Shown: positions 7,994 through 17,480 of the stretch, one piece after another
How the letters are laid out: each line of letters opens with the position of its first letter
Position numbering within the stretch: the stretch's first letter is position 1
Assembly (NCBI GenBank): GCA_937872065.1
Contig: CALMRA010000007.1
Span: forward strand, 1-46,398
From: an uncultured Eubacteriaceae bacterium
Lineage (GTDB): Bacteria; Bacillota; Clostridia; Eubacteriales; Eubacteriaceae
Direction of reading: 5' to 3'
DNA length: 46,398 bases
The notes under the pieces: generated by a model
Told to the model about the DNA's origin: nothing
The model's database searches: none
Seen by the model: the letters and a program-made list of their open reading frames with translations, nothing else
Translations under genes and position numbers: made by a program

Positions 7994-8002
7994 TGATATA
8001 AT
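7994..8002 (+). promoter_or_regulatory. Extended -10 promoter of the wall hydrolase gene
   Basis: TGA-TATAAT: a perfect TATAAT (7997-8002) preceded by the TGN extension at 7994-7996. No convincing -35 element lies 16-18 nt upstream, which extended -10 promoters tolerate. Transcription should start near 8008-8010, so the ATG at 8008 lies at the very 5' end of the message. Confidence 0.65.
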
Positions 8003-8094
8003 TAACCATGACTTTCACGGGAAGGCATAAGACATCAGGAAAATCATCAGGGGCTCTTTCCGGAAAATCAAATCTAAAGAAAGGAGGATATATA

Positions 8095-11000
8095 ATTTCT
8101 CGACAACTGAATAAAGAAAGGTTTTTACCTGCCGTTATTGTTATCGGAATACTTTTCTGTCTGCTTTTTGTCTGCAATGCTGCAGTCAGCGCGCAGCAGA
8201 AGGTCATTGTCATCAACCCCGGACACAGCATCGGTTATGACTCTGGAGCGACAAATGAAACGACGGGAGTTACCGAAGCTCAGGTCAATCAGGATCTGGC
8301 CGGCGCACTCGTTAAAAAACTGGCTGCGGCGGGATATGAGGTTTATATCACGCATACGACCGATAAGACTCTATCCCAGTACACTCTTGGAACTCAGGCA
8401 CAGGGAAATTCGTTTTCGGCTCTCAACACGCTTGCCGACAGTAAAAATCCGGATCTTGTGATTTCGATCCACCATAATTCCGGGGGCAGCTCCGCTTCAG
8501 GCTTCGAATTATACTGGAGCAGCTACAGAAGCTACGATACATCCGGAGTGTATGAGGTTTCCGGTCTGTGGTCGGACGGCAGTACTGCCTTCCGCGACAG
8601 CTCACCGTGCTCGGCAGCACAGGAATCCGAAAAGTTTGCAGAGATCCTTCAAAGCAGCTTTTCAGACGGCAAACTGACATACAGAAAAACAGTAGAGCGA
8701 GACGATTATCTTCCTGCTCACTCGAGCGCTCCCTGCGTTCTATACGAAGGCGGGTTTATATCGAATAATTCGGAATCAGAGTATCTGAACAGTCAGGCTT
8801 ACCGCGATTCCGCGTCGGACTGCTTTCTGAAGGCAGTCAATTCCTATTTTGGAAAAACCTCTTCGGATACGGAAGCGCCGACAATCGATTCGTTCCAGTC
8901 AAGCTGTGGTCAGCTGCCTACGACAGATGCGGTCATTACGCTGACAGCGACGGGCGTAGCGGATGACAGCGGTGTTAAATCGGTAAAATTCCCGGTCTGG
9001 ACTTCTGACAACAATCAGAAGGATCTGATCTGGTACGATGCGGTCGACATGGGCGGAGGAGTCTGGTCGGTCACAATCGACATTTCAGATTACGGAGGCG
9101 CGACGGGGCAGTATATCGCTCATGTCTATACCTATGATACAGAGGGTAATTCCTCCTATCGCGGCATGACCACCTTTACGGTCACAGAGCTTACCGGCAT
9201 AGCCGACGGCGTTTCGATTGTGAAGCAGAACGAAACGACTGCCAGCGCCTATATCAAAGGATTAGACGGTACAGGCTTCAAATTTGCAGTCTGGAGCGAA
9301 GTAAACGGTCAGGACGATCTGAAATGGGTATCGACGGTACGTCAGACGGACGGCAGCTATAAGGCTGTAATCCGGACATCGGACCATAACAACGATACCG
9401 GAGTCTATAACGTACATGCTTACTCATCGTCCGGCGGAATCAAGCCGATGACGGTCGAATTCAAGGTCATGTCCTATACGAGTCTGACAATTTCAGAACC
9501 GGAAAACGGGCAGTTTACAATTACGCTCAACGGCGTAAGCGCATCAAACGGGGTCAAGAAGATTTTGTTCCCGGTATGGAGCGCTAACGGCGGTCAGGAC
9601 GATCTGAAATGGTATACGGCAGTGAAGAACGGAGATTCTTATACTGCGACCGTAAATCTGAAGGATCACGGATGGGATACTGGAACCTATTACGTTCACG
9701 TCTATGGAACCGACAATTTGAACCAGCAGTTTTTCCTGTCTTCGTCCACTGTAACTGTAAAGACAATGGAAGCCTCTACGCTGACCGTAACTGAACCGGA
9801 AAACGGAACATTTACTGTTACACTGTCCGGAGTTTCGTCTCCCGCGGGTGTAAACAAGATTCTGTTCCCCGTCTGGAGTGCGAATAACGGCCAGGACGAT
9901 CTGAAATGGTATACCGCCGTCAAACAGAACGGCCAGTATGTCTGTACGATCAGTCTGAAGGATCACGGTTACGATACCGGAGATTACAATATTCATGCTT
10001 ACGGCATCGACAGCAGCGGGACACAGACGTTCCTGAAGAATATTACACTTAATGTTCCTCAGATGACCGCGTCGTCCGTTGCAGTAACTGAATCGGATTC
10101 GGACAGCTTCACGATTACGGTGAGCGGGATCAATGCACCGAACGGTGTGAACAGGATTCTTATCCCCGTCTGGAGTGATGTGGACGGTCAGGACGACTTA
10201 GTATGGTATACGGCTCAGAAGTCCGGAGATACCTACAGCGTAAAGGTAAAAGTGTCGGATCATAATGATGATACGGGACAGTACCATATCCATGTATACG
10301 GAGTTGACAATAACGGCAGGACTCAGGGACTCGGCTCGACGTATTATTATAATGACGCTGCGGATCAAACGGAAACACCAAAGTTAAGTGTTACGGCAGA
10401 TTCGAACGGTAAAATATCGATCGTGCTCGACGGAGTCAGCAATTATGCGAGCATCAAGTTCCCGGTCTGGAGCGAAGATAACGGTCAGGATGATCTTGTC
10501 TGGTATCAGGCGGATAAATCCGGGTCGCAGGCAACCTGTACGGTGGATATCGCAGATCACGGTTCCAAATCCGGCGTATACTACGTTCACGCTTATGGCA
10601 GGAGTGATACCGGCAGCTATGTCGGTATAGCCTCTGCATCCGTAGAGGTTGCGGCACCGGCTTCGAACAGCTCTGCCGCAGAGGCTGTTACGACTCAAAC
10701 GAAGATCATGGGGACCAGTACGGTCACAGCCGACCAGCTGGTGCAGCTGTACACACAGTCAGGTAATACCTTTCCAGATTATTATACGAAGAGAGGTGTA
10801 GATCTGAAAGCATTTGCTCAGATGTACATCGACGAAGCGAGCGCAGAAGGCGTCCGTGCAGATATCGCTTTTGCTCAGGCTATGCTTGAGACGAGCTATC
10901 TGCAGTTTACGGGCAGCGTTAATATCTCGCAGTTCAATTTTGCAGGACTCGGCGCGGCGGGAAACGGCGTCACCGGAGAAGATTTCTCAATATACGGTGA

Positions 11001-11217
11001 CAATTCGGTGGGAATTCGAATGGGCATCCGTGCGCAGATTCAGCATTTAAAAGCTTACGCGTCTACCGATCCTCTCAACAACGAGCAGGTTGACAGCAGA
11101 TTTGGTTATGTTACAAGAGGATGCGCAGCGACAATCGGACAGCTGTCAGGCACATGGGCGGCAGATACGTCCTATGCGGCGAAGATTGTTGCCATCATAG
11201 CGGAGATAGCAGCTTAA
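8095..11217 (+). CDS. Secreted wall hydrolase: N-acetylmuramoyl-L-alanine amidase, six GBS-Bsp-like repeats, glucosaminidase
   Basis: A bifunctional peptidoglycan hydrolase, about 1040 aa. Start choice: AAGGAGG at 8081-8087 lies 7 nt before an ATT codon at 8095, and no ATG, GTG or TTG follows in frame before the signal peptide. The only in-frame ATG upstream (8008) has no ribosome-binding site and sits on the predicted transcription start. From 8095 the protein begins with an ideal signal peptide (basic n-region, hydrophobic 11-27, cleavage after AVSA near 33). Residues about 36-250 are Amidase_3 with zinc-site landmarks NPGH (H44), a following Glu in TEAQ, IHHN, and catalytic Glu in YEGGF. 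About 262-852 hold six repeats, then a glucosaminidase domain with the catalytic-type MLETSY. It should act outside the cell in wall turnover or daughter-cell separation. Apart from its start, the annotation is firm. Confidence 0.9.
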   Translation: MSRQLNKERFLPAVIVIGILFCLLFVCNAAVSAQQKVIVINPGHSIGYDSGATNETTGVTEAQVNQDLAGALVKKLAAAGYEVYITHTTDKTLSQYTLGTQAQGNSFSALNTLADSKNPDLVISIHHNSGGSSASGFELYWSSYRSYDTSGVYEVSGLWSDGSTAFRDSSPCSAAQESEKFAEILQSSFSDGKLTYRKTVERDDYLPAHSSAPCVLYEGGFISNNSESEYLNSQAYRDSASDCFLKAVNSYFGKTSSDTEAPTIDSFQSSCGQLPTTDAVITLTATGVADDSGVKSVKFPVWTSDNNQKDLIWYDAVDMGGGVWSVTIDISDYGGATGQYIAHVYTYDTEGNSSYRGMTTFTVTELTGIADGVSIVKQNETTASAYIKGLDGTGFKFAVWSEVNGQDDLKWVSTVRQTDGSYKAVIRTSDHNNDTGVYNVHAYSSSGGIKPMTVEFKVMSYTSLTISEPENGQFTITLNGVSASNGVKKILFPVWSANGGQDDLKWYTAVKNGDSYTATVNLKDHGWDTGTYYVHVYGTDNLNQQFFLSSSTVTVKTMEASTLTVTEPENGTFTVTLSGVSSPAGVNKILFPVWSANNGQDDLKWYTAVKQNGQYVCTISLKDHGYDTGDYNIHAYGIDSSGTQTFLKNITLNVPQMTASSVAVTESDSDSFTITVSGINAPNGVNRILIPVWSDVDGQDDLVWYTAQKSGDTYSVKVKVSDHNDDTGQYHIHVYGVDNNGRTQGLGSTYYYNDAADQTETPKLSVTADSNGKISIVLDGVSNYASIKFPVWSEDNGQDDLVWYQADKSGSQATCTVDIADHGSKSGVYYVHAYGRSDTGSYVGIASASVEVAAPASNSSAAEAVTTQTKIMGTSTVTADQLVQLYTQSGNTFPDYYTKRGVDLKAFAQMYIDEASAEGVRADIAFAQAMLETSYLQFTGSVNISQFNFAGLGAAGNGVTGEDFSIYGDNSVGIRMGIRAQIQHLKAYASTDPLNNEQVDSRFGYVTRGCAATIGQLSGTWAADTSYAAKIVAIIAEIAA
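8881..10650 (+). repeat. Six tandem GBS-Bsp-like repeats within the hydrolase gene
   Basis: Six units of roughly 90-97 codons, each with the pattern [FI]xVW(S/T)..x(N/G)GQ(D)DL.W, then a D(H/Y)...TG.Y..H.Y core. The core motifs begin near 8986, 9280, 9570, 9867, 10167 and 10459. The first unit is most diverged (NNQKDLIW), and units 3 and 4 are closest. A 21-nt stretch beginning GGTCAGGACGATC is identical at 9307-9327 and 9592-9612, and recurs at 9889-9909 with one change. The repeats probably form a wall- or ligand-binding stalk. Confidence 0.85.
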
Positions 11218-12721: not shown

Positions 12722-13927
12722 ATGAAGAAGATGAAAATGCATGAATATCTTACGGAACTGAATTCGACGGAAGACGGTTTTTCAGAAGAGTCCATGTACC
12801 TTCGATTTACAGATTCGTTACTGGAACAGGCTGTTCGAAGCAGGTCGTCAGACGTGCATGTCGAACCCCTTGACGGGGGCGGTGCGAGAATTCGATTTCG
12901 CATCGACGCAAGTCTGAAGACGCAGATGGTTATCGGCCGAAACATCGCGTCCAAGCTTGCGATCCGTCTGAAATGTCTGGCCGGTGTCGATCTTACTGAC
13001 AGCAAGCGGGCGCAGGAAGGGAGCTTCGCTTTCTCCTGCCTGAACAGAGAGATTTCTGTCCGTTATTCTGCGCTGCCGACGTCCTCGGGGCAAAAGGTGG
13101 TTATGAGAATCTTCGATCCTCTTACCTACACGAGAGACCTGCAGGATCTCGGTTTTACGGACAGTGATTATCTGCTGTTTTCGCAGATGCTCCGCAGAAA
13201 AAGCGGTCTGATTCTGATAACCGGCGGTACGGGAAGCGGCAAGTCCACTACCTGTTTCAGCGCGTTAAGACAGATCAGTACCGAAGCGCTCAGTTTAGTC
13301 AGTATTGAAGATCCGGTCGAAGTCAGGCTGCCGTTTATAACGCAGTTTCAGACGGACTGCGCCTGCGATTTTGCTTATCTTCTGACAATGATTCTCCGAC
13401 AGGATCCGGATGTGATTTTTCTCGGAGAGATCAGAGATGAAGAGAGCGCGCGGGCGGCGGTGCGTGCCGGAAACACCGGCCATCTCGTTCTGAGTACGAT
13501 TCACGCTTCAGACTGCTTCTCCGTTCCATCGCGTTTGGGCGAGCTCGGAATCAGGCCTCAGGTCCTGTCCGAAGTGCTCACCGGCGTTATCTCTCAGAGA
13601 CTGATGCGCCGTATCTGCCCGCACTGCGCGCTGCAGGTGCCTCCCGATACCGGAGATATTCTCGCTCAGCGCGGCTGCTATCGCAGCACCGGATGTCCCG
13701 CATGCAGACATACCGGTGTACTCGGACAAAAGGGATTATACGAAGTACTACCGTATGACCGGGAACTGATTTCACTCGTAACCGGGAAGACGAAGCCCGC
13801 CCGGCTCCGCAGAGAAGCGGAAGCAAGAGGATGGGTGTCGTTCGATTCAAAAATCACCGAGGAGGTGGCTTGCGGAAGTATTTCGATAAATGAAGGCCGA
13901 AGGTTGTTGAATGAAGGAATGGTTTAA
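12722..13927 (+). CDS. comGA: ComGA/PilB-type pilus assembly ATPase
   Basis: A cytoplasmic hexameric motor of the GspE/PilB family, 401 aa, first gene of a seven-gene pseudopilus operon. Landmarks: N2-domain motif SSDVHVEPL (42-50), Walker A GGTGSGKST (168-176), Asp box SIEDPVE (194-200), Walker B with FLGEIRDEE (233-241) and His box GHLVLSTIH (253-261). The zinc-binding tetracysteine C299/C302/C325/C328, present in extension ATPases and absent from retraction ATPases, is intact. The protein is short, like ComGA, lacking the long N-terminal domain of PilB. It should power assembly of a competence pseudopilus for DNA uptake. The end overlaps comGB by 17 nt, implying coupled translation. Confidence 0.93.
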   Translation: MKKMKMHEYLTELNSTEDGFSEESMYLRFTDSLLEQAVRSRSSDVHVEPLDGGGARIRFRIDASLKTQMVIGRNIASKLAIRLKCLAGVDLTDSKRAQEGSFAFSCLNREISVRYSALPTSSGQKVVMRIFDPLTYTRDLQDLGFTDSDYLLFSQMLRRKSGLILITGGTGSGKSTTCFSALRQISTEALSLVSIEDPVEVRLPFITQFQTDCACDFAYLLTMILRQDPDVIFLGEIRDEESARAAVRAGNTGHLVLSTIHASDCFSVPSRLGELGIRPQVLSEVLTGVISQRLMRRICPHCALQVPPDTGDILAQRGCYRSTGCPACRHTGVLGQKGLYEVLPYDRELISLVTGKTKPARLRREAEARGWVSFDSKITEEVACGSISINEGRRLLNEGMV

Positions 13928-15008
13928 AATACCGCCGATGCCCGGAGTCTTCCCGACTGTCAGTTCAAAAAGGTTTGCCGTCTTCTGTTCTCAGCTGCGG
14001 GGACTGATCAAAGCAGGAATTACGATTCCTGAAGGTCTGTCGATAATCGCAGACAGCAATGAATATTCAAAGGCATTCACAACCGATCTGAACATCGTAC
14101 GGGAGCATCTGCTGGGCGGCGAACATCTTTCCGACTCCTTTCGGTCCTGTCCGGGCTCTTTTCCTGACCTGTTCTGCACCATGCTGTATTCGGCAGAAAT
14201 ATCAGGAGATCTCGAGCAGGTGCTCGAAGAATCATCAGGCCTGTACAAAGCGAAAGCGGAACAGCAGGGGAAAACTGTGTCACTACTGTTTTATCCCTGT
14301 GTGGTCATGGTCTTCGCTTTCGCGGTACTGGCTTTTCTCACCGGTTACGTCCTTCCTGTGTTTGAAAGCAGTTTTTCTGATGCGGGAATGGAAATGCCGC
14401 TGCTCACCCGGGTTGTCACTGCCTGTGCGGGCGCCGCAGTTTATCTGATTCCGCTGCTGGCGGCAATTCTGGCAGCAGCCGGACTTATGATCAGCCGTCG
14501 CTGCAAAGCGGATGAACACTTTGCCAGAGAGATCGGCAGGTACTGTCTGAAGGTTCCGGTATTCGGAAAGCTGCAGTATTACGACGGACTCCGCATGCTG
14601 GCCGGTGTTCTGGAGATACTGCTTCGAACCGGAATCACCCTTCCGGAAGCGCTCAGAGTTGCTTCGGAAACGGCTCAGAACCGTTATCTGGCCTCTGTGT
14701 ATGAGGATGTCCGGACAGACCTCTATATCGGGAAGCGTCTGTCTGAATCGTTGGATCAGACGAAGATTTTCGAACCGGTTCTTATGGGAATGGTTCGTCT
14801 CGGCGAGAAAACAGGAGACTTTGAAGGAGCGATGAGCTCCGTTAAAGCCTGGTATTCCGATGTGCTCGCCGAGCGGACCGACAGGTACGCCAGAATGGCG
14901 GAACCTGTTATGATCGGATTTCTCGGGATTATCGTGGGAATTGTCATGCTTGCACTGTTCCTGCCGGTCCTGCAGAACTATCAGAGCTTCAGCACACAAA
15001 TTAACTGA
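13911..15008 (+). CDS. comGB: ComGB/PilC-type pilus platform membrane protein
   Basis: A 365-aa inner-membrane platform protein of the GspF family. Two cytoplasmic helical domains (about 20-125 and 215-325) carry family motifs such as LIKAGITIPEGL (31-43), FxxMLYSAEISGDL, and in the second copy LRTGITLPEAL and RLGEKTGDFE. Membrane segments lie near 124-148, 168-195 and 330-355. It links the ComGA motor to the growing pilus. Translation is probably coupled to comGA through the overlap. No anomaly was seen. Confidence 0.92.
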   Translation: MKEWFKIPPMPGVFPTVSSKRFAVFCSQLRGLIKAGITIPEGLSIIADSNEYSKAFTTDLNIVREHLLGGEHLSDSFRSCPGSFPDLFCTMLYSAEISGDLEQVLEESSGLYKAKAEQQGKTVSLLFYPCVVMVFAFAVLAFLTGYVLPVFESSFSDAGMEMPLLTRVVTACAGAAVYLIPLLAAILAAAGLMISRRCKADEHFAREIGRYCLKVPVFGKLQYYDGLRMLAGVLEILLRTGITLPEALRVASETAQNRYLASVYEDVRTDLYIGKRLSESLDQTKIFEPVLMGMVRLGEKTGDFEGAMSSVKAWYSDVLAERTDRYARMAEPVMIGFLGIIVGIVMLALFLPVLQNYQSFSTQIN

Positions 15009-15016
15009 GGAAAATC

Positions 15017-15451
15017 ATGAATGGAATAAACAAGAGATATTACGGCTCCGATTCAGAAGACTACGAACTTCTCGAAGAATCGGCAGACTCAGGCTTTACG
15101 TTCACAGAGCTGCTCATAAGCTGCGCGATTATGGTCGTACTTGCTGCCGTTGCGGTACCGGTCTTTACGAAGGTGCTGGATAATGTCAAGGATCAGGCGG
15201 ATCAGTCTACTGCCGCTGCCGTTCAGACCGCCTACGATACCGCGAAGCTCATGGAATCGACTCCGATTTCGATCACAGCCGACACACCCGAAGCCGCGTT
15301 CGCAGAACTGGTTTCAGCTCTTCAGGATAGAGAATATCTGAAAAATTCTGATTATACAGCTCAACGGACCGGCAACAGCTTCGGTTTCAATTCGAGTACC
15401 GGTATCGTCGCAGTCAGTTATGCGCAGGATTCCGGAAGCGGAACTCCGTAA
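15017..15451 (+). CDS. comGC: ComGC-like major pseudopilin
   Basis: A 144-aa prepilin with AGGA upstream of the ATG. The processing site is SG-FTFTELLISCAIMVV: cleavage after G26, mature residue F27, and the assembly glutamate E31 at +5. The hydrophobic helix runs to about residue 50 (VPVF). The leader is unusually long (26 residues) and acidic (SDSEDYELLEESAD); type IV leaders in Gram-positive com systems are usually shorter. As the first pilin after the platform gene, with the best-preserved signature, it is the likely main subunit. A prepilin peptidase gene is not in this window and must lie elsewhere. Confidence 0.87.
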   Translation: MNGINKRYYGSDSEDYELLEESADSGFTFTELLISCAIMVVLAAVAVPVFTKVLDNVKDQADQSTAAAVQTAYDTAKLMESTPISITADTPEAAFAELVSALQDREYLKNSDYTAQRTGNSFGFNSSTGIVAVSYAQDSGSGTP

Positions 15452-15487: not shown

Positions 15488-15976
15488 ATGAAGGATGAGC
15501 ATGAGCAGGGTTATGTCTATACGGAGCTTCTGATCTGTACGCTTATTATGGTTATGTTAAGCGGAAGCGCTGCCTTCGTCCTGCATGATTTTAAGGAAGC
15601 AGCCGTCAGAAAACAATTTGAGGCAGATACGAACAGGGTCCTCGCTATCATGCTTAACGAAAGAATCAGAGTGATGGCAGGCACGCCTAAGGAAACAGCC
15701 TTAAGCCGAATCTATTTTACAGAAGACACGATATACGTGACTGCACCGGATGCGGACGGCAACGTGAAAAGCATCCAGTACAGTTTCGGCAGCAGACTTA
15801 AAATCAGAGCCTATTTTGGATCGAATGCGGGGAAGGAAATTATTTTCAAGCTCAGCGGCAGCATTTCCCAGGCGGGAAATATTATCTTTAATTCGGCCGA
15901 CGGGAAGCTGAAAAGAGAGCTGATCGTTCAGCCGGTCAATTCGCTTATTTATCTTAAACCGGTCGAGACAGTCTGA
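15488..15976 (+). CDS. ComGD-like minor pseudopilin
   Basis: A 162-aa pilin-like protein with a short leader ending EHEQG at residue 8, then YVYTELLICTLIMVML, with Glu at +5 (E13). The C-terminal part is beta-rich, as in ComGD/GspH-type minor pilins. Its start is uncertain: ATG 15488 has its nearest GGAG at 15471-15474, 13 bases away, which is long; an in-frame CTG at 15479 is closer, but a stop lies just before it. By position it corresponds to comGD; sequence similarity to named ComGD cannot be judged here. Confidence 0.8.
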   Translation: MKDEHEQGYVYTELLICTLIMVMLSGSAAFVLHDFKEAAVRKQFEADTNRVLAIMLNERIRVMAGTPKETALSRIYFTEDTIYVTAPDADGNVKSIQYSFGSRLKIRAYFGSNAGKEIIFKLSGSISQAGNIIFNSADGKLKRELIVQPVNSLIYLKPVETV

Positions 15977-16073: not shown

Positions 16074-16487
16074 ATGTTTCGGAAAACGCTGCTTAAGCGC
16101 GCTGCATCTCTTATCTTCCGTTGTAGACCGATACGGACAGACAGCGAGAGCGGCTCCGCTTTTATCGAGGTAATCGCAGCAGCAGCGATTTTACTGATCG
16201 GTCTATCCACTTTAACAGTCCACACAACGCTGGTGCTTCAGACGATACAGCAGTCCCGGGAGATCGGGCAGTCAGGTGAAATCGCAGGAATCGTTTTGGA
16301 AACGGTCTCTGACGAAACGCTGGACAGCAGTACGATCGGGGACAGACTGAAGGAGCGTTTTCCGGGATACGAATTTTTTATCGATGAGAAAGAATCCGGT
16401 CTGTACGAGTTGAGTTTCAGTAAAAAAACTGCGGAGGAGGAGACGAATCAAACCGTATATCGAACGCTTTTTTTCAGAGAGGGATAG
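16074..16487 (+). CDS. ComGE-like minor pseudopilin
   Basis: A 137-aa prepilin with AGAGGA before its ATG. The processing site is ESG-SAFIEVIAAAAILLIG: cleavage after G27 and Glu at +5 (E32). The leader is long and basic. The C-terminal half is short. Its last 41 bases overlap the next reading frame. GAGGAGGAG codons near its end double as a Shine-Dalgarno sequence for the following gene, and a run of seven T (16468-16474) lies close to the stop. Assignment as comGE rests on order in the operon. Confidence 0.8.
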   Translation: MFRKTLLKRAASLIFRCRPIRTDSESGSAFIEVIAAAAILLIGLSTLTVHTTLVLQTIQQSREIGQSGEIAGIVLETVSDETLDSSTIGDRLKERFPGYEFFIDEKESGLYELSFSKKTAEEETNQTVYRTLFFREG

Positions 16488-16983
16488 AGCTGCTGAATCT
16501 GAAGAAGGATCGACTCTGGCGGAACTGCTGGCTGCATCTGCCGGAGCGATGATCCTGCTGAGCGTACTGACTTCGGTATTATATACGCAGCTTAAGGTAT
16601 TAGAGGAAAGCCGTTCGCTTCAGGACCGTTCCCGTCTGATTGAAATGCATATTTATTTCCAGTCGCTCGTCGATATGACTGAAACCATTGTTATCAGAGA
16701 CGGGATTATCTATTTCGACGATCTCGACAATAAGGGTAAGGATAAATCGGCGACGAAAAAAATGTATTTCGAAACGCATGGTGAAGGTGTATACAGACAT
16801 CTTTGCTATACGGACAGTCTTGAAGGAATAGGCGGGAGCGGAGAGGCACATCAGCGTTTCGCAAAAATCAGAAATTTCAGTCTTGTAATGGACGGTGCAG
16901 ATCTGGTCCTTCGGGCATCGGCAGGAAATGAGACAATTGAAACGTATATTTTCGTTCAGAAAACAATCATCTATATAGAATAG
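16447..16983 (+). CDS. ComGF-like minor pseudopilin with apparent AUC start
   Basis: About 178 aa if started at ATC 16447. The frame is open from 16414 and contains a complete prepilin signature, SEEG-STLAELLAASAGAMILL, with cleavage after G21 and Glu at +5 (E26). No ATG, GTG or TTG exists between the upstream stop and that signature. The first ATG (16549) falls inside the hydrophobic helix and would destroy the signal. The sequence GGAGGAGG at 16433-16440 lies 6 bases before the ATC, an optimal placement. I therefore infer initiation at AUC, inside the end of the previous gene. A frameshift at the T7 tract is the main alternative. The protein likely belongs to the pilus tip complex. Confidence 0.78.
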   Translation: MKPYIERFFSERDRAAESEEGSTLAELLAASAGAMILLSVLTSVLYTQLKVLEESRSLQDRSRLIEMHIYFQSLVDMTETIVIRDGIIYFDDLDNKGKDKSATKKMYFETHGEGVYRHLCYTDSLEGIGGSGEAHQRFAKIRNFSLVMDGADLVLRASAGNETIETYIFVQKTIIYIE

Positions 16984-17042
16984 GAGTCAGAAGCGGTCCG
17001 CAGTGAGCGGACAGGCCTGAAAAAAATAATTATAGGATGAAG

Positions 17043-17480
17043 ATGAATTCTTCCGCAGGAAAAGGCGGCAGAGAAGAAGGCGCAGTACTGCCGATCGTTC
17101 TGATCGTAGTCTGCGTCTTTCTTCTGTTTATGACGGCAGTATCATCGGAGGTGCCCGTACAGAATAAAACCGGCAGGTCATACAGCGAATATTTCGGGAC
17201 GAAGCTCGCTGTGTCGGGGGTGTTGTCTATGGCTCAGGCGGAGATTGCCCGTGACCCGGAATGGTCCGGAAGCCTGTTATATGAAGCAAACGGAATTTCT
17301 GCTGCAGCTCAGGTTTCAGCCCAGGCCGGCGGATACAGAGTATTTACAGTGGATGTAAAAGGCACGCTGTTTCCGTCCGAGTATTACGGACGCTTTACAA
17401 TTTCTGACGGAACAGTCACAGATACCTATCTGATCCAGAAAAGATATTCATCGGAAACTGCGCGTTTTCCGGATACCTGA
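17043..17480 (+). CDS. ComGG/PilX/GspK-like minor pseudopilin lacking Glu+5
   Basis: About 145 aa. I prefer ATG 17043 (AGGA at 17034-17037, 5-base spacing) over ATG 17037. The leader ends REEG at residue 13, followed by AVLPIVLIVVCVFLLFMTAVS. The +5 residue is Ile, not Glu. Missing Glu5 is the hallmark of the tip subunit in other systems (GspK), and the GAVLPIVL start is like PilX. As last gene of the operon it fits comGG. A weak hairpin AAAGCAG/CTGCTTT follows the stop near 17482-17501, without a clean T-run. Confidence 0.75.
   Translation: MNSSAGKGGREEGAVLPIVLIVVCVFLLFMTAVSSEVPVQNKTGRSYSEYFGTKLAVSGVLSMAQAEIARDPEWSGSLLYEANGISAAAQVSAQAGGYRVFTVDVKGTLFPSEYYGRFTISDGTVTDTYLIQKRYSSETARFPDT

Follow-up and report, generated by a model that had tools for sequence, protein, structure and literature searches.

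A comGF-like minor pilin gene with a probable AUC initiation codon and an amidase gene with a conserved AUU start in an uncultured Eubacteriaceae bacterium

We asked where translation begins in the sixth gene of a comG-type operon, whose reading frame encodes a prepilin signal and offers no ordinary start codon in front of it. The window, i.e., the whole stretch of DNA that was analyzed (46,398 nucleotides), carries this operon in the order GA-GB-GC-GD-GE-GF-GG, and the gene tested lies between comGE and comGG:

12722..13927, + strand: comGA, pilus extension ATPase (T2SSE, 1.1e-91; ComGA model 218 bits, under its 300-bit cut-off)
13911..15008, + strand: comGB, platform protein (T2SSF, 9.7e-51)
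15017..15451, + strand: comGC, major pilin (N_methyl above cut-off; ComGC match weak)
15488..15976, + strand: comGD-like minor pilin (weak ComGD match, E 0.19; operon position)
16074..16487, + strand: comGE-like minor pilin, its final 41 nt shared with comGF, which is in the +1 frame
16447..16983, + strand: comGF-like minor pilin read from ATC, 178 codons plus stop, similar to the comGF-position genes of the family
17037..17480, + strand: comGG-like gene at the end of the operon (assigned only by its position and by a hydrophobic N terminus)

The window protein matched no curated ComGF family model in Pfam or NCBIfam; therefore, we call it comGF-like, on the basis of its position and its similarity to relatives. 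It resembles comGF-position genes in 22 genomes of the family besides its own (E<=0.01), with the best match in G002, the nearest relative (E 2.9e-9), and identity to relatives is only about 20–30%. The prepilin residues Gly-1 and Glu+5 (GSTLAE) were invariant in an alignment of 13 comGF sequences (alignment columns G13 and E18). A prepilin peptidase gene and ComEC are present in the genome, no other lesion was seen in the comG operon, and the DNA-uptake machine looks complete. Because the peptidase and ComEC are present and comGA and comGB are intact, a functional ComGF is expected. The genome holds no second copy of the comG locus, and a contig scan with ComGA returned distant loci only.

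The comGF frame (16414-16983) opens after a TGA at 16411-16413. An earlier, sequence-only reading had described a complete prepilin signal (EEG-STLAELL, Glu at +5) upstream of the first ATG and an ATC behind an optimal Shine-Dalgarno sequence in place of an ordinary start codon, and the sequence confirmed both. No ATG, GTG or TTG occurs in the frame until ATG 16549, which lies within the hydrophobic segment; as that reading had also noted, a start there would strip the signal. The start region contains the following features, and the spacer between the first two is 6 nt:

16433..16440, + strand: Shine-Dalgarno (SD) sequence GGAGGAGG of comGF, in the comGE 3' end; same motif in the same place in G002
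16447..16449, + strand: ATC, proposed comGF initiation codon, aligning with GTG in G002 and with ATG, GTG or TTG in the relatives
16447..16509, + strand: prepilin leader, 21 codons ending in Gly, with cleavage expected between 16509 and 16510

The encoded leader is IKPYIERFFSERDRAAESEEG, followed across the cleavage site by STLAELL, and the Glu+5 codon is at 16522-16524. The predicted anti-SD pairing at the ATC was -12.3 kcal/mol; in a 1.1-Mb sample of the genome, about 92% of the ordinary starts pair no more strongly than this. Pairing as strong was found at 0.7% of internal ATH or CTG codons. The presence of ATC 16447 at SD distance exceeds chance expectation. CTG 16429 and ATC 16459 were considered as comGF starts and rejected for a weak SD or wrong spacing, and no alternative start with an SD was found upstream of the cleavage site.

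We then compared the comGF start across relatives. The start was ATG, GTG or TTG in 23 of 23 relatives and always upstream of the cleavage site; it lay near the comGE/comGF junction and, in most of them, within the comGE 3' end. The usual arrangement is a start that spans two comGE codons, the first ending in T and the second beginning with G (encoding DE, NE, HE or SG). In G002, GGAGGAGG is followed after 6 nt by GTG, and both SD and start are in the exact comGE codon phase of the window. The comGE codons at this point are AAT CAA (NQ) in the window and AAT GAR (NE) in two relatives (L006 and L014); a single G>C at 16449 separates the ATC of the window from an ordinary ATG. None of the 23 relatives shared ATC at the comGF start. 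Judged from this alignment, ATC 16447 is on the conserved, ancestral comGF initiation site, and it is the AUC codon, not the site, that appears private to the window genome. The alignment of relatives that the sequence-only reading had called for thus upheld the position of the start and not its codon. No comGF was detectable in G001, the single congener, whose genome is only 70% complete, or in genus g7, indicating that comG was probably lost in nearby lineages.

We propose, with a probability of roughly two in three, that ATC 16447 is the ancestral comGF initiation site, now used as a weak near-cognate start. An ancestral NTG would have become ATC by G>C, a change that in the comGE frame turns AAT GAA into AAT CAA and so replaces Glu by Gln. 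Ribosomes would be recruited to comGF by the SD sequence, itself encoded by comGE Glu codons; the initiator tRNA would read AUC with a third-position mismatch, the strong SD would preserve some initiation, and the cell would make ComGF, complete with its prepilin leader, at a lower rate. IF3 destabilizes the initiator tRNA on AUC, AUU and AUA, where two of three positions are paired, and a strong SD partly compensates, as established for infC. We infer that the cell does initiate at this AUC, at a reduced yield, and that it tolerates or profits from the small amount of ComGF. For the further suggestion that AUC was selected to hold down the pilus, we found no evidence: the codon is unconserved, and one base error would produce it.

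Such an error is the alternative that survives best, and we consider it unlikely. The true codon would be ATG, the C at 16449 would be a single-base assembly or consensus error, and comGF would be an ordinary gene. The equivalent of 16449 is G in all relatives, L006 and L014 have the AAT GAR codons given above, and the ATC is known from one assembly only, which is fragmented into 315 contigs. In addition, CAA is very rare in the genome sample, where the usage of Gln codons is extremely biased (169 CAA vs 8054 CAG, with 14147 GAA, among 272,124 codons); thus, the codon change in comGF is either recent or an error. Three conserved genes are each interrupted by one TAG in frame, which in at least two of them replaces a conserved Tyr: glycogen phosphorylase, glgP (L138, 7842, minus strand), a double-rubredoxin (rubredoxin-like) gene (C64, 53892, plus strand) and a MerR regulator gene (L133, 2552, plus strand). 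These interruptions are base errors or real nonsense mutations, and they suggest that isolated single-base defects are present in this assembly. We also considered TAG as a genome-wide sense codon and rejected it: TAG terminates 95 of 794 sampled genes, and the 1.1-Mb sample contains no CTA-anticodon tRNA. Supposing that all three TAGs are errors, the error rate is about 1e-4 per base (3 events among about 85,500 possible nonsense changes). However, at this rate, assembly error predicts 0.03 (uniform errors) to 0.3 (G/C-skewed errors) false ATC starts among the 884 sampled genes. The other near-cognate starts of the genome, which are described below, are too many for the estimated rate, and the one at 8095 is confirmed by relatives.

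A real loss of the start codon is improbable. Here, the ATC would not serve as a useful start; comGF would be a recent loss-of-function allele, and the pilus would be lost with it. The lineages without detectable comGF (G001, at 70% completeness, and genus g7) are in keeping with such a loss, and the Com pilus of S. sanguinis requires every com gene, comGF among them (PMC10790768). However, the comG operon is otherwise unlesioned, prepilin peptidase and ComEC are present, the SD is still strong, and other genes are known to work with AUC or AUU starts. Far less probable is a ComGE-ComGF fusion made by +1 frameshifting at the T7 run at 16468-16474. The two frames overlap and the run of seven T lies inside the overlap; however, fusion would put the prepilin signal inside the protein, the run is absent in G002, which has its GTG start, and all relatives have separate starts. 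The frameshift product that the sequence-only reading had named as a possible refutation was, therefore, not supported. Translation from ATG 16549, which would yield a pilin without a signal, can be dismissed just as readily: it is the first ordinary start codon in frame, but it would lose the conserved Gly-1 and Glu+5 and half of the hydrophobic helix, its SD is weak (-4.2 kcal/mol), and the start precedes the cleavage site in every relative.

We also examined a second gene of the window, at 8095, which had been read as starting with AUU:

8078..8087, + strand: 10-nt SD match AGAAAGGAGG of the amidase gene, in the top 0.5% of genes by pairing
8095..11217, + strand: secreted N-acetylmuramoyl-L-alanine amidase / GBS_Bsp-like repeat / glucosaminidase protein, from domain matches; start ATT 8095

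An in-frame ATG farther upstream, at 8008, lacks a convincing SD and lies 5 nt after a TATAAT box (7997-8002). ATT was the only start at SD distance in the amidase relatives of G001 (L201 and its paralogue L214), G007 (L206) and G014 (L202), and likewise in G019 (L205 and its paralogue L215). In G002 (L209), ATT is 8 nt from the SD and an ATG merely 2 nt from it, indicating that an AUU start is probable. AUU thus recurs in orthologues or paralogues of five other genomes (G002 probably) in three genera, which bears out the earlier proposal for this gene. The amidase start was mostly TTG in genus g6 (ATG in G022) and mostly ATG in genus g3. Since the codon has been kept in six genomes, including that of the window, and in three genera, this comparison identifies the amidase AUU as real and not a sequencing artefact. 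The conserved amidase AUU is a firmer result than the comGF AUC. Gene callers would extend or truncate this gene.

Next, we scanned the 1.1-Mb genome sample (884 genes) for other near-cognate starts. The infC gene starts with ATA behind GGAGGT (L033, contig C1, minus strand, about base 125). An AUA-started infC is classical and is the usual sign of IF3-discriminated initiation. This gene is divided over two contig ends (C1 and C258). An iron-type alcohol dehydrogenase gene has ATT behind AAGGAG (L080, C44:35705); the codon at that residue is ATG in G042 and G007. Further candidates, each with an SD upstream and no ordinary start nearby, are ATA in a GntR regulator gene (L064, about 2108) and CTG in ArsR (L035, 12440, minus strand) and PhoH (L136, about 7790, minus strand) genes. 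A single tRNA-Met was found in the sample and is apparently the elongator. A PTS EIIC-like gene (L080, 11722, minus strand) shows an apparent frameshift just past a seven-A run near its 5' end. We set aside, as too permissive, an expectation-maximization (EM) estimate of how often each of the 61 codons serves as a start.

The sequence-only reading had inferred that this organism uses near-cognate initiation to hold down secreted or pilus components and had suggested a genome-wide search. This general idea is supported in part, chiefly by the conserved amidase AUU and also by the AUA of infC; the comGF AUC is unconserved, with NTG in 23 of 23 relatives. The search did return further candidates, and several of them, namely alcohol dehydrogenase, GntR, ArsR and PhoH, are cytoplasmic; a rule limited to exported proteins is therefore unsupported. 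A broader possibility is that the family uses AUU, AUA and AUC behind a strong SD as a regular, evolving gene-dosage dial, at a rate above that of known bacteria, in envelope genes (amidase and pilus) and some metabolic and regulatory genes. We regard this as doubtful.

Gene callers permit NTG starts only. In genes such as these, the signal peptide is consequently lost from the annotation, and exported proteins appear as cytoplasmic fragments. If comGF starts at AUC, it is a natural case in which a single base change sets the dosage of a minor pilin and at the same time alters an amino acid encoded by the overlapping gene. The amidase AUU survives across species and is directly testable in a cultured relative. 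In the open-licence literature that we searched, no paper was found linking pilin or amidase genes to near-cognate starts; as far as this literature shows, the amidase AUU adds a new case of a conserved near-cognate start. The comGF AUC, probably a weak start of a type already described, would be a new, apparently species-private example of it.

Non-canonical starts behind strong SD sequences are a known phenomenon, and we compared the window genes with described systems. With respect to the comGF of comG operons (ComGF/PilW-type minor pilin), the window gene agrees in gene order, comGE overlap and prepilin signal, and differs in having ATC for NTG and no curated-model match. The autoregulated infC genes, with AUU, AUC or AUA, share the IF3-discriminated near-cognate codon; however, infC autoregulates IF3, and there is no reason to suppose any such feedback from comGF or the amidase. 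In Streptomyces, infC starts with ATC, and sigR starts with GTC and is repressed by IF3 (PMC5472188). The sigR start resembles that proposed for comGF in being non-canonical, overlooked by gene callers and dose-limiting, but the dose effect was shown genetically for sigR (PMC5472188), whereas for comGF we infer it. In S. aureus, cvfC1, ccpN, citZ and infC have non-canonical starts behind extended SDs, as proven by Ribo-Ret and reporters, and AUU and AUA starts there reach about 10% of AUG activity; in rich medium, the ccpN start reaches as much as 30% (PMC13009471). Those starts and the window cases have in common a third-position mismatch a few nucleotides past a strong SD, and the S. aureus set and the window amidase are both kept across species. 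The S. aureus starts were established experimentally (PMC13009471), whereas support for the window starts is comparative. Compared with S. aureus, the comGF start is AUC and unconserved, and its SD is strong yet not of the long extended type. More generally, weaker start codons tend to be offset by stronger SDs in bacteria (PMC5622118).
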